From: Modestobacter roseus
Lineage (GTDB): Bacteria > Actinomycetota > Actinomycetes > Mycobacteriales > Geodermatophilaceae
Assembly (NCBI RefSeq): GCF_007994135.1
Contig: NZ_VLKF01000001.1
Coordinates: 3,348,001 to 3,412,000, forward strand
Direction of reading: 5' to 3'
Length of the DNA: 64,000 bases
The translations under genes and the position numbers were made by a program. Of this stretch, positions 16,112-20,866 are shown in pieces. How positions within the stretch are numbered: the stretch's first letter is position 1; each line of letters starts with the position of its first letter. The notes below the pieces were generated by a model, which worked only from the letters and a program-made list of their open reading frames with translations, was not told the DNA's origin and made no database searches.

Positions 16112-17176
16112 TCAGTTCCCGGCCGGCTGCACGCGGGCGACGGCCGGACGCCCACCGCGCGGCCCGAAGGTCTCCACGACCGCCGACACCCCGGCGTTCG
16201 ACGCCCCGGCGACCACGACGAGCACCGCCTCCGGCGAGGAGAGGGCGTGGATGCCGTCGCGGTCGGGGTCGGGGCCGGGGTCGACCTCGCCGTCGGGGTG
16301 GCCGGTGGGCACCCGCCAGCGGCTGACCTGGGAGACCGCGCCCTTGCCGACGGCGTCGAGCTCGGCGCGGCTGCGGAAGGACGCGTCGTAGAGGAACTGC
16401 GCGATGTCCCGCTTGCTCCAGCCGTGCCCGGCCAGCAGCCGCGCGTGCTCCGGTCCCAGCACGATGCAGGCGCTGATCCCGGCGTGGATCAGCGCCCCGG
16501 TGCGGGAGACGGTGCCGGCGATGTCGGTGAGCAGCTGCTCGGGGACGGAGGTGTGCCGGGCCTCGATGTGCACGGTGGAGCGCATCGTCATCGCCGTCAC
16601 CGTGCTCTCGCCCGGGTCGTGCCCCTCGTCGACGTGCAGTGGAGCCCAGGGCGACTCCTCCTCGTTCTCGGCGATGCAGCAGGTGTACTTCGCCGGGGTG
16701 CCCTGGGTCGCCTGGTCCAGCTCGTGCGGCCGGACGCCGAGCACGTTGAGCGCGGTGAGCCGGAGCGCCCGGCCGATGGTGGCGTTGGCGCGGAACCCGG
16801 GCCCGAAGACGTTGCCCGTGCTGTTCAGCCCGAGCTGCTCGCGCACCGGGCCGTTGACCAGCAGCAGCGGCGCGGTGCCGGTGGTGGACTGCCAGATGCC
16901 CTTGCGGACGTAGCCCTCCTCGCGCAGGGCGTCCCAGCCGGCGAGCACGACCGGGAAGTACTCCGGACGGCAGCCGGCCATCACCGCGTTGATCGCCGCC
17001 AGCCGGACGGTGATCGCCCGGTTGATCTGCGGCATCGCGAGCACCGTCTCGCCCGGGTCGCGGTCGACCGTGGCGAGGAAGGCGTCGAGCTGCTCCTGCG
17101 TGCACGGGACGACGGGCAGCCCGTCGGTCCAGCCCTTCTCGTAGCAGTGCTCGAGCGCTTCCAGCGTCGTGGTCAC
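16112..17176 (-). CDS. Conserved partner of the UGSC protein, function unknown
   Basis: 354 aa, GTG overlapping the UGSC stop. No catalytic family is recognised. Conserved-looking features: GWTDGLPVVPCT at the N-terminus, INAVMAGCRPEYFPVVLA, LNSTGNVFGPGFRANATIGRA, and a CC pair followed by acidic residues in KYTCCIAENEEESPWAPLH, plus GWSKRDIAQFLYD near 265. No signal peptide or membrane segment. I recall proteins of this type beside UGSC genes in other soil bacteria, which together with the 4-nt overlap suggests a two-component enzyme with the UGSC protein as redox-active subunit. This is inference; the reaction is unknown. Confidence 0.6.
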   Translation of the reverse strand: MTTTLEALEHCYEKGWTDGLPVVPCTQEQLDAFLATVDRDPGETVLAMPQINRAITVRLAAINAVMAGCRPEYFPVVLAGWDALREEGYVRKGIWQSTTGTAPLLLVNGPVREQLGLNSTGNVFGPGFRANATIGRALRLTALNVLGVRPHELDQATQGTPAKYTCCIAENEEESPWAPLHVDEGHDPGESTVTAMTMRSTVHIEARHTSVPEQLLTDIAGTVSRTGALIHAGISACIVLGPEHARLLAGHGWSKRDIAQFLYDASFRSRAELDAVGKGAVSQVSRWRVPTGHPDGEVDPGPDPDRDGIHALSSPEAVLVVVAGASNAGVSAVVETFGPRGGRPAVARVQPAGN

Positions 17177-17709
17177 TCCTCCACCCCCAGGATCTCCAGC
17201 ACCTGCGGGAGCGCGGCGGTCACCCGCTCCCGGATCTGCTCGGCGGTCAGGCTGGCCACCGGATGAGGCAACGAGACGTACTCGTAGCCGGGGAAGCCGT
17301 AGCCGCTGGCCATGGCCGCCCCCGTGATGCGGAAGGCGTCGGTGCAGACGGAGACGGCGGGCACGCCCGCGCGCTCCAGCAGGATCCCGTCGGCCACACT
17401 GGCCGCGCTGCAGGAGCCCTAATCACCGATCGCGGTGATCGCGAAGTCGCACTCCTGGAAGATCCGCTGGGTCTGGGTCGGCTCGACCGGGGTGCCGAAG
17501 TAGGGCTTGGTGAACATCAGCACCTCGCCCACGCCGTGCCGCTCGCGCAGCTGCCGGGCGAACTCCTCCAGCAGCGCCGCGCCGTTGGGCTTGCCGTTGT
17601 CGAGCAGGCCGAGGGTGGCGCCGCGCAGGGTGCGCGTGCGGGGTGCCAGGGCGGTGTCCTGCCCCTGCTCACCAGCGCCGGTGGGGTCGAGGATCTCGTG
17701 CAGTTCCAT
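17173..17709 (-). CDS. UGSC-motif selenoprotein with UAG-encoded selenocysteine
   Basis: Reading from ATG 17709 (MELHEILDPTG) gives 96 residues to FAITAIGD, then an in-frame TAG (17421-17419), then GSCSAASVADG and 73 more residues to TGA at 17173. With the TAG read as Sec the protein is 178 aa and the motif is U97-G-S-C100, the signature of the UGSC (seleno)protein family. Both halves are in one frame, without a frameshift, and residues on both sides look well preserved. UAG as a Sec codon has been reported in Geodermatophilus and Blastococcus. Sec97 and Cys100 would form a UxxC redox pair. First gene of the minus operon; role likely reductive or thiol/selenol catalysis with the partner at 16112-17176. 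The alternative is a pseudogene. Confidence 0.82.
17391..17405 (-). promoter_or_regulatory. SECIS-like hairpin after the UAG codon
   Basis: On the mRNA, a 5-bp stem CGGCC/GGCCG closes the loop AGUGU. The loop starts 18 nt after the UAG, within the 16-37 nt window known for bacterial SECIS elements, and has G at its second position followed by U, as expected for SelB recognition. The helix can extend below an internal loop (UCC with GGA). Fold and SelB binding are predicted only. Confidence 0.55.
17419..17421 (-). other. In-frame UAG proposed to encode selenocysteine
   Basis: The codon (CTA on the + strand) is followed directly by GGC TCC TGC, completing U-G-S-C. It falls exactly at the family's Sec position. 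Confidence 0.8.
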
Positions 17710-17750
17710 CGCGCCGTCCGTTCTCCGGAGCGGGAGCTCTCGTGCCGCAG

Positions 17751-17767
17751 TGTTCGGGATGCGAACA
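17751..17767. promoter_or_regulatory. Operator candidate upstream of the UGSC gene
   Basis: TGTTCG-N5-CGAACA is a perfect 6-bp inverted repeat in the 5' leader, 21 nt after the -10 hexamer on the minus strand. Matches 14 of 17 positions with 2065-2081. Likely bound by the IclR protein at 10096-10935. Confidence 0.6.
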
Positions 17768-17788
17768 GGAGTGCTCTTGTCGAACGCG

Positions 17789-17817
17789 ACGTTAGCCAGG
17801 TCACAGGGGCACGTCAA
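17789..17817 (-). promoter_or_regulatory. Promoter of the UGSC operon
   Basis: On the minus strand TTGACG (17817-17812), 17 nt, TAACGT (17794-17789). The spacer contains GTGACC-N4 directly before TAAC, exactly as in the promoter at 2016-2046. It predicts a leader of about 75 nt before the ATG at 17709. Confidence 0.6.
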
Positions 17818-17868
17818 CGGGCGACGGCGCGATGGCGCCGCCGCCCGTCGGACCGGCGGGAGAGGGGG

Positions 17869-19203
17869 TCAGGCCAGCGGGCTGCGGGGGAGCAGGCGGT
17901 TGCTGATGATCCGCTTCTGGATCTCGCTGGTGCCCTCGAAGATCGTGGTCAGCCGGGCGTCGCGCCAGTGCCGCTCGACCTGGCGCTCCGTGGTGTAGCC
18001 GTTGCCGCCGTGCAGCTGCATGGCCTGGTTGGTCACCCGCACGGCCATCTCGGTGGCCTGCAGCTTCACCATCGCCGCCTCCCGCTCGCAGGGCACGCCC
18101 TCGTCGAGCAGGTGCGCGACCTGGCGGTAGAAGGCGCGGGCCTGCTCGACGTCGGCGGCCATCTCGGCGAGGGTGAACCGCAGCGCCTGGAAGTCACCGA
18201 TCGGGCGACCGAACTGCGCCCGCTCCTGCAGGTACCGCGTGGTGTCCTCCACCGCCGCCCGGGCCAGGCCCACCGCCCGGGCCGCGGTCTGCACCCGCGC
18301 GGTGTTGAGGAACGCCTGCGCCTCCCGGAAGCCCGCGCCGGAGTCCCCGCCGCCGCCCGTGCCGCCCTCGCCGGGGCCGACGATCAGGTCACCGGCCGGG
18401 ATCCGCACCCCGTCGAAGGTGAGGTCCCAGGTGAGGAAGCCGTGGTAGCCGACCTTGTCGATGGCGTAGCCGGACAGCCCGGGCGGGAAGGCGCCGCGCT
18501 CCTTGACCAGCAGCAGGTTGCGCAGGCCGCGGGAGCGGGACTCCCCCGGCTGCGGGTCGGCGACCCGGACCAGCACCTGGATGAAGTCCGCGGCGAGCGC
18601 GTTGCCGGCCCAGCGCTTGTGACCGGTCACCACCCACTCGTCGCCGTCCAGCACGGCGCGGGTCTGCACGTTGGCGAGGTCCGAGCCCGCCTCGGGCTCG
18701 GACAGCGCCACGCTGCCGATCCACTCGCCCCGGGCGCTCCGGCGGAGCAACCCGGCCCGCCGGGCGGGGTCGGCGACCTGGGTGCCCATGCCCTGCGCGC
18801 GCGCCAGGATGCTCGCCACGCTCATCCACGCCCGCGCCAGCTCCTCGCTGACCAGGCAGTACTCGAAGACGCCGAGCCCCAGGCCGCCGTCGGCCGCGGG
18901 GATGGTCAGGCCGAACCAGCCGAGCTCGCCCAGCCGCGCGATCAGCTCGGGCGGGATCTGGCCCTTCTGCGGGTCGAGCTCGTCGGCGACCGGGAGCACC
19001 TCGTCCCGGGCGAAGGCCCGCGCCTGCTCCATCAGCGCCGCCCGGGCGGGGGTGTGCCACGGCGAGTGCAGCACCGGCGGCTGGGGCGGCCACGGCTCGG
19101 CGAGCACCGGCTCGGTGGGCACCGGCTCGGTCGGCTCGGTCGGCGCGGTCGGCTCGGTCGGCGCGGTCGGCGCGGTCTCGGGGCGGCGGGCGGTCGACGT
19201 CAC
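17869..19203 (-). CDS. Acyl-CoA dehydrogenase with repetitive N-terminal tail
   Basis: 444 aa from GTG 19203, which has GGAGG 7 nt upstream; a longer reading to 19254 has no such support. Residues about 65-440 are a full acyl-CoA dehydrogenase: ALSEPEAGSDLANVQT (FAD/substrate loop), VTGHKRWAGNALAADF, QAMQLHGGNGYTTERQVERHWRDAR and the C-terminal TTIFEGTSEIQKRIIS. Residues about 5-30 are a Pro/Thr/Glu-rich tail from a 9-nt repeat. The gene lies directly upstream of the UGSC operon on the same strand but is followed by that operon's own promoter, so it may be a linked yet separately transcribed step acting on a CoA ester. Confidence 0.9.
   Translation of the reverse strand: MTSTARRPETAPTAPTEPTAPTEPTEPVPTEPVLAEPWPPQPPVLHSPWHTPARAALMEQARAFARDEVLPVADELDPQKGQIPPELIARLGELGWFGLTIPAADGGLGLGVFEYCLVSEELARAWMSVASILARAQGMGTQVADPARRAGLLRRSARGEWIGSVALSEPEAGSDLANVQTRAVLDGDEWVVTGHKRWAGNALAADFIQVLVRVADPQPGESRSRGLRNLLLVKERGAFPPGLSGYAIDKVGYHGFLTWDLTFDGVRIPAGDLIVGPGEGGTGGGGDSGAGFREAQAFLNTARVQTAARAVGLARAAVEDTTRYLQERAQFGRPIGDFQALRFTLAEMAADVEQARAFYRQVAHLLDEGVPCEREAAMVKLQATEMAVRVTNQAMQLHGGNGYTTERQVERHWRDARLTTIFEGTSEIQKRIISNRLLPRSPLA
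19111..19178. repeat. 9-nt tandem repeat inside the acyl-CoA dehydrogenase gene
   Basis: About seven imperfect copies of a 9-nt unit (GGTCGGCTC/GGTCGGCGC on the + strand) encode alternating TAP/TEP tripeptides at the protein N-terminus. Likely a slippage-prone, length-variable tract. Confidence 0.7.
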
Positions 19204-19308
19204 TGTCGTCCTCCAGGGCTCGGGTGTCCGGATGTGGCGACCACTCTCCGGCACCGCCGCGGCCCCGCACAGCCCCGCTGGGCCGGCAGTGACCAGCGCA
19301 ACACCCGG

Positions 19309-20682
19309 TCAGTCGACCGTGCAGGGTGGGCGCTCGACGTGCCAGCTGGTGCGCTGCTGGAACCAGGCCCCGGCGTCGAGCAGCAGGTCCTCCCCGCCGA
19401 CGGCGGCCGTGAGCTGGGCGCCGACCGGCAGACCGGAGACGGGGTGCCGGCCGACCGGCAGGGCGAGCGTGGGCCCGGCGTGCAGCGACCACGGCGCGGT
19501 CAGCGTGCTCAGCCGGCGGGTGAGGGTGAGCACGTCGTCGGCGCCGACCGCCGTGGGGACGTCGCCGGGCAGGGTGGGCGTGAGCAGCACGTCGACGGAG
19601 CCGAAGAGCTCCTCCAGGCCGCGCTGGTACTCCGCGCGCACCTGCAGCGCCGCGGACCGGTCGCCCTCGGACACGCCCTCGCCCACCCGCAGCCGGGCGA
19701 GCGTCTCGGGCTGGAAGAGCTCCGGCTCGGCCAGGCGCTCGCGGTGCAGGTCGGCGATGGTGGAGTAGACGATCGTGTAGAGCACGTCCTGGGCGACGCT
19801 GATCCCCGGCACCGTCACCGGCACCAGCTCGGCGCCACCCTCGCCGAACACCGCGCCCGCGGCCGCGACCACCTCCGCGACGCCGGGGTCCAGGTCGTCG
19901 AACCAGGGTTCGGGGACGCCGATCCGCCGGGGCACGGCCGGGCGCAGCGTCCGGGGCGGCCGGCCGGCGAGGACGGCGAAGGCGCGGGCGGCCAGCTCGA
20001 CCGTGCGGGCCAGCGGGCCGACCGTGTCGACCAGTTCGCAGACCGGGAAGGTGCCGGCGTCCGGGACGACGGAGATCCCCGGCCGCAGCCCGGTGACCCC
20101 GCAGGCCGCGGCGGGCAGCCGCACCGAGCCGCCGGTGTCGGTGCCCAGGGCGACGTCGACCAGGCCGGCGGCGACCGCGGCACCCGCGCCGCCACTGGAG
20201 CCCCCGGGCAGCCGGTCCAGGGCCCACGGGTTGCGGACCGGGCCGACGGCCGAGTTCTGGCTGGTCAGCCCGATGGCGAACTCCGACAGGTTCAGCTTGG
20301 CGACCATCTGCGCGCCGGCGTCGGCCAGCCGGGTGACGACGACCGCGTCGGTCTCGGGGACCCGGTCGGCGAAGAACGCCGATGCGCAGGTGGTGGGCAC
20401 CCCGGCGGTGTCGATGTTGTCCTTCAGCCCGACCCGCACCCCGGCGAGCGGGCCGTCGGGGGCGTGCGCCAGCGGCGGGTCGATGCGGCGCAGCACCGCA
20501 TTGGTGGCCGCGCGCACCTCCTCCTCCCGCCGAGCGCGCTCGGCGGCGTCCAGGGGTCCCACCTTCAGCACCCGGCGTCGGACGGGGGCGGCGAGGTCGG
20601 GACGGCGGTCACGGACGGTGAGACTGCCACCTCCGGGCCCGTCCGTCAGCAGGGCGGTCCAGCGGCCTGGACCAGGGGACAC
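19309..20682 (-). CDS. Amidase-signature family hydrolase
   Basis: 457 aa, GTG start. Amidase-signature residues are visible: catalytic Lys in VRVGLKDNIDTAG (about 83), cis-Ser and Gly/Ser-rich core LPGGSSGGAGAAVAAGLVDVALGTDTGGSVRLPA (about 155-185). It should hydrolyse an amide to acid and ammonia; GatA-type tRNA amidotransferase is unlikely because no GatB/C is nearby and the gene is solitary. It is divergent from the formamidase genes and follows a cluster of acid-catabolic genes, which would fit release of an acid from an amide, but the substrate is unknown. Confidence 0.85.
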   Translation of the reverse strand: MSPGPGRWTALLTDGPGGGSLTVRDRRPDLAAPVRRRVLKVGPLDAAERARREEEVRAATNAVLRRIDPPLAHAPDGPLAGVRVGLKDNIDTAGVPTTCASAFFADRVPETDAVVVTRLADAGAQMVAKLNLSEFAIGLTSQNSAVGPVRNPWALDRLPGGSSGGAGAAVAAGLVDVALGTDTGGSVRLPAAACGVTGLRPGISVVPDAGTFPVCELVDTVGPLARTVELAARAFAVLAGRPPRTLRPAVPRRIGVPEPWFDDLDPGVAEVVAAAGAVFGEGGAELVPVTVPGISVAQDVLYTIVYSTIADLHRERLAEPELFQPETLARLRVGEGVSEGDRSAALQVRAEYQRGLEELFGSVDVLLTPTLPGDVPTAVGADDVLTLTRRLSTLTAPWSLHAGPTLALPVGRHPVSGLPVGAQLTAAVGGEDLLLDAGAWFQQRTSWHVERPPCTVD

Positions 20683-20866
20683 CGGACGGGGACCGCCGCA
20701 TGCCCGGCCCCCGGCTGCCCACCCGGTGCGTCACGACGCGCCGCCGGGGGCCGTGGCCGGAGCCGGCCCGGGACGCGAGCGCCTTGACCGCCCTGCCGGC
20801 GGGGTCGAGGGTCCGTCTGGTCCGGAGGGCCGAGTGCCCTTCCGCCGGTGCCCCCGGAGGTCCGAC

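Follow-up and report, generated by a model that had tools for sequence, protein, structure and literature searches.

A gene of the UGSC family in Modestobacter roseus carries an in-frame TAG that, on the evidence of the sequence, is almost certainly read as selenocysteine in the cell. The observations are jointly best explained by a selenocysteine at residue 97 that is specified by UAG and decoded through tRNA-Sec(CUA), SelA, SelD, SelB and a hairpin, by what is most simply one exchange of codon and anticodon, and by a probable redox protein acting together with the product of the neighbouring gene—an explanation in which we place very high confidence. The gene lies in the window, by which we mean the whole stretch of 64,000 nucleotides that was analysed (C1:3348001-3412000, C1 being contig NZ_VLKF01000001.1), within a host genome of 4.5 Mb that is 99.83% complete. 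The features relevant to the argument are, in window coordinates:

16112-17176, minus strand: partner gene, 354 aa, GTG start (from the ORF list and homologues)
17173-17709, minus strand: UGSC-family gene, 178 residues, residue 97 being TAG (translation; PF24696 216.8 bits; NF041046 159.1 bits)
17389-17407, minus strand: SECIS-like hairpin after the TAG (folds, alignments and pair counts)
17419-17421, minus strand: in-frame TAG at the Sec position, codon 97 (translation and codons of homologues)

Read on the minus strand from 17709 to 17173, the UGSC gene opens with ATG, closes with TGA and contains a lone TAG, with both halves in one frame; residues 97-100, TAG-Gly-Ser-Cys, form the U/C-G-S-C motif of the family. 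The PF24696 profile aligns across the TAG (residues 5-175 against profile positions 1-171 of 172, E 2.9e-64), and both its score and that of NF041046, the model for UGSC family (seleno)proteins, exceed the curated cut-offs of 25 and 125 bits, respectively. The preliminary description, made from the letters of the window, had proposed a protein of two intact halves divided by the TAG, with Gly-Ser-Cys directly behind that codon; its coordinates and the length of 178 residues are correct, and the division is confirmed by the translation and by the near end-to-end profile match. Its warning that automated annotation would split the gene is equally justified, as mechanical gene finding does split such genes. 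The mechanical list of reading frames also holds a 1174-aa ORF at 17263-20787 on the plus strand, antisense to the UGSC and acyl-CoA dehydrogenase genes, which looks like a high-GC artefact.

Could the TAG be an accident? The Cys-type UGSC paralogues present in the same genome lend some plausibility to the idea that it is a nonsense mutation in such a gene, or else a sequencing error, but the distribution of the codon among relatives makes this very improbable. Across 112 genomes of the family, the Pfam UGSC model found 95 matches, of which 72 hold exactly one TAG, 23 no stop and none a TGA or TAA, a pattern that bears out the earlier contention that random nonsense mutation would not account for the TAG. 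The matches are spread over 54 genomes, 48 of them with a TAG copy; that UGSC matches occur in no more than 54 of the 112 genomes we count against our preferred explanation. Among 46 copies located by their motif, a set from which copies with a differing motif and duplicate loci were left out, 35 have TAG at the U site and 11 a Cys codon. All 35 TAG copies, and none of the 11 Cys copies, have AGT at positions 22-24 counted from the T of the TAG as 1 (the numbering used for the hairpin throughout), a codon that accounts for 5 of the 221 Ser codons in 11 genes. The frame behind the TAG also stays similar in relatives; for example, 61 of 77 codons specify the same residue as in locus L094.

Alternatively, the TAG might be a true stop between two short proteins, the second of them initiated at a GTG further on. 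A 74-aa frame with a GTG start is indeed found behind the TAG at 17173-17397, and, release factor 1 truncation at Sec codons being established in general, some truncated product is to be expected. The GTG, however, lies behind the Gly-Ser-Cys, so that the motif would be cut off; moreover, the Cys homologues are single frames, and orthologues from outside the family carry TGA and the hairpin at this place. We therefore regard two separate proteins as a very slim prospect. The outside orthologues in question, the nearest that were found beyond the family, belong to two MAGs, one named Pseudonocardiaceae (65% identity) and the other Nocardiopsaceae (58-59%); both have TGA at exactly codon 97, both contain the hairpin CGGCCAGTCTGGCCG, and a search for their tRNA-Sec gave no tRNA within the loci examined. 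Residue and hairpin are kept and the codon alone differs, which we consider the most telling single result of the analysis. A scan of named genomes returned seven UGSC loci, five of them in Geodermatophilus or Blastococcus records and all five with TAG, in agreement with the host family that had been proposed at the outset. Aligned at the U site, the homologues hold TAG, TGA or Cys codons and no unrelated residues, the presence of which the preliminary description had named as grounds for abandoning its claim. No relatives appeared in a scan of viral contigs.

It is because the genome possesses a matching altered tRNA together with selenium machinery that we read the TAG as selenocysteine. A tRNA-Sec with anticodon CUA is located at C1:639892 (Rfam 65.6 bits, cut-off 47), selD directly adjoins it, and selA and selB follow some 6.6 kb further on. 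In profile searches of the genome selD scored 383.7 bits and selB 277.9 bits, both above cut-off, and SelA, present as a single copy, 307.3 bits. The CUA anticodon would also suit a UAG that encodes pyrrolysine, and ARAGORN does label the tRNA (L001:1501-1596) as tRNA-Pyl, a trap for automatic annotation. Yet Rfam scores the same tRNA as tRNA-Sec above its cut-off, PylS has no match at E 0.001 in the genome by a search that was above cut-off in one of 14 control genomes, selA, selB and selD are present, and homologues have Cys or TGA at the site, leaving pyrrolysine with a negligible probability. The preliminary description had called for a search for selC with a CUA anticodon and for selA, selB and selD, and had held that a genome devoid of such a tRNA would speak against it; all of these genes are present, and its interpretation of the TAG as selenocysteine draws support from them, from the absence of pylS, and from a formate dehydrogenase (FDH) and a second UGSC gene with TAG in the same genome.

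The Sec codon of the FDH gene (C1:4027159) is TAG, in the context ENQARI-TAG-HSATV. Four UGSC genes are encoded in the genome, two of which—the window gene and one at C1:2246269—have TAG at the same site, while TGC (Cys) occupies the U site of those at C1:1965334 and C1:1968744. The Cys-type genes form a pair about 3 kb apart in locus L079 (C1:1963500-1971000), with a homologue of the partner gene near each. A SECIS model, R1, run against the genome with 150 of 19,873 first-look candidates scored, gave 35 matches at E up to 10. The strongest, at 48.9, 47.7 and 40.3 bits, are the window gene, the FDH gene and the second UGSC gene, as expected given that all three are members of the model; the next match reaches 24.4 bits. 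Twenty matches came with loci, and the 17 below the top three, inspected by eye as candidates for further UAG selenoproteins, offered no convincing case: several consist of a TAG with some open frame on either side, and none looked like a real protein.

The hairpin of the window copy has a core stem pairing positions 17-22 with 26-31 and a loop with G23-U24. In other groups the stem extends over 15-22 with 26-33; the outer two pairs (15-33 and 16-32) are not formed in the window copy and are absent in its own group. In an alignment of 12 UGSC and 8 FDH sequences (A3; 19 distinct, the UGSC sequences chosen from those available, the FDH ones being 8 of the 13 with TAG, and L066 left out), 92.1% of cells are paired, against 34-48% in slid versions. 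Cells changed on both sides number 40, compared with 13.6 in shuffles and with none of 500 shuffles as high; seven of the eight pairs show changes on both sides, a number also attained in 96 of 500 shuffles. For UGSC alone (A1; 23 sequences, 14 distinct), pairing extends to 83.9% of cells, with three of the eight pairs having changes on both sides, as many as in 247 of 500 shuffles. The hairpin sequence is also under coding constraint. The loop of FDH reads GGTCT in 12 of the 13 TAG copies and AGTCT in the other, in the same register as UGSC (the FDH loci L151 and L153 were unmatched by the FDH motif search), and the GGTCT of Escherichia coli fdhF lies equally far from its Sec codon. A register common to UGSC, FDH and E. 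coli fdhF is a modest addition to the known picture. Judged by sequence and covariation, the genome thus appears to have the SECIS hairpin that belongs to a UAG-Sec system.

How would such a codon be decoded? Charging and delivery of the tRNA follow the established bacterial Sec pathway: tRNA-Sec(CUA) would be charged with serine and converted by SelA to Sec-tRNA with selenophosphate from SelD, after which SelB, drawn in by the hairpin that immediately follows the UAG, would bring it to the ribosome, where insertion at the UAG would compete with release factor 1. Codon and anticodon would have been exchanged together, from UGA/UCA to UAG/CUA, with the hairpin and the enzymes staying in place, and most simply once, in the ancestor of most genera of the family.

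A survey of the family is consistent with this proposal. The best tRNA-Sec could be read in 108 of the 112 genomes, with CUA only in 100, UCA only in seven, all from genera g6, g7 and g8, and both in one (G059). The other four (G068, G072, G097 and G098), which are MAG-like and 67-82% complete where listed, gave no tRNA-Sec match above 60 bits, the one read in G072 being a tRNA-Ser. A TAG-bearing FDH match was found in all 17 genomes searched from the host's own genus (g1), and a TGA-bearing FDH in at least five of 12 genomes from other families, with none carrying TAG among the matches listed. By their FDH, nine further genomes of the family were divided between TAG (G059, G076, G107 and G111), TGA (G071, G073 and G074) and neither codon (G067 and G070). 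Across the family, the anticodon and the Sec codon shift in step.

A SelB tree was built from 22 rows. All 13 CUA rows cluster together (100/99), and beside them stand the two g6 genomes with UCA (96/91); the three from g7 and g8, also with UCA, are placed with the four outgroup rows, whose loci each contain a tRNA-Sec with UCA. The tree is a midpoint-rooted tree of one gene, not a species tree, its outgroups group weakly (51/19), and it took 22 of 28 genomes, G069, G074, G112, G116, G117 and G118 being without a match above cut-off; the UCA genomes are assemblies broken into hundreds of contigs. Because the sampled CUA genomes form one SelB group, one UGA-to-UAG switch inside the family is the simplest reading. 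We consider it likely that a single complete swap of the Sec codon took place in the ancestor of most genera, after g6 had branched off, whereby the anticodon of tRNA-Sec became CUA in place of UCA, TAG replaced TGA as the Sec codon of the selenoprotein genes examined (FDH and several UGSC groups), SECIS and SelB were kept, and the window gene was re-spelled. More than one tRNA-Sec gene was noted in two genomes. In G059 the CUA copy (L077, C11:15836-15927) lies beside the single selA and the UCA copy (L111:1169-1263, C17) in a part of a 69-kb contig that is rich in transposases; as the FDH and UGSC genes of this genome use TAG, we would take the UCA copy for an acquired orphan, and G059 may read both codons as Sec. 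G037 has two tRNA-Sec(CUA) genes (L046 and L189) on two contigs of one fragmented assembly, which may represent a strain mixture.

What could be the role of the UGSC protein? Its stop codon and the GTG start of the partner gene share four bases (GTGA), and this overlap suggests that translation continuing past the TAG may in addition promote initiation at the partner gene. Homologues of the partner, which has no Pfam or NCBIfam match, occur in all 26 UGSC-bearing loci searched (a number that includes two same-place pairs from two collections, L094/L177 and L098/L180) and mostly adjoin the UGSC gene. In L093 the homologue is some 3 kb away, and the L064 homologue (genus g3) is situated upstream of UGSC and includes an N-terminal stretch that scores weakly as a thioredoxin (19.8 bits, cut-off 27). 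Genes nearby encode an acyl-CoA dehydrogenase, an FAD oxidoreductase, an IlvD-type dehydratase and an amidase, alongside a weak MaoC-like match below its cut-off and a frame that by eye resembles an AMP ligase. In the AlphaFold model of the UGSC protein (mean pLDDT 83.1) the predicted fold is alpha/beta and residue 97 immediately precedes helix 98-113, and a U-x-x-C pair at the start of a helix would fit thiol-selenol redox chemistry. From the model and the motif, we take the product to be a probable redox protein that has Sec97 and Cys100 where the helix begins and that works with the partner product; our best guess, held with low confidence, is a redox reaction whose substrate is a small carbon compound or a thiol. 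None of the Foldseek hits for the UGSC model reached E 0.001 (the best had E 1.1e-3 and a TM-score of about 0.4), for which reason we claim no fold family; among solved structures the best sequence match had E 0.067, and the model of the partner is poor (mean pLDDT 39.5). A link to GrdB/PrdB, considered by us from a likeness of motifs, found no support, a Pfam search at E 10 having given UGSC alone for all eight members.

The Geodermatophilaceae offer a clean natural case of a changed tRNA anticodon giving a stop codon a new meaning, and, since related bacteria exist in which it has occurred and in which it has not, one can now test in what order the steps of a codon switch took place. They also illustrate an annotation hazard, in that such genes are split and their tRNA is misnamed. 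UAG-encoded selenocysteine in UGSC and FDH is already known in kind and in this family, having been published in 2016 and 2017. Our additions are modest—the shared hairpin register, the UGA orthologues whose hairpin is the same, and the evidence that points to one switch. A literature search, conducted mostly without subscription journals, found no family-wide anticodon survey and no switch placed on a tree, and we claim no priority.

Section 17 of Santesmasses et al. 2017 (PMC5330540) describes three Geodermatophilaceae genomes with tRNA-Sec(CUA), credits UAG-encoded FDH and UGSC-motif selenoproteins in this family to Mukai et al. 2016 (doi 10.1002/anie.201511657), and adds AhpC in Blastococcus saxobsidens. 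The present system shares with the one outlined there the tRNA-Sec(CUA), the TAG at the Sec codon of FDH and UGSC-motif proteins, and the host family, and it shows no difference in kind from that outline. With the UGSC selenoprotein family (PF24696, NF041046), in so far as the relevant part of the Global Ocean Sampling study (PMC2398784) portrays it, our gene has in common the full-length match and the U-G-S-C motif; it differs in that the Sec codon is UAG instead of UGA, and two Cys copies accompany it in the genome. In the SECIS and SelB system of E. coli fdhF, too, the Sec codon is immediately followed by a hairpin that carries G-U at positions 23-24, but there the codon is UGA, here it is UAG, and the letters of the stem differ.
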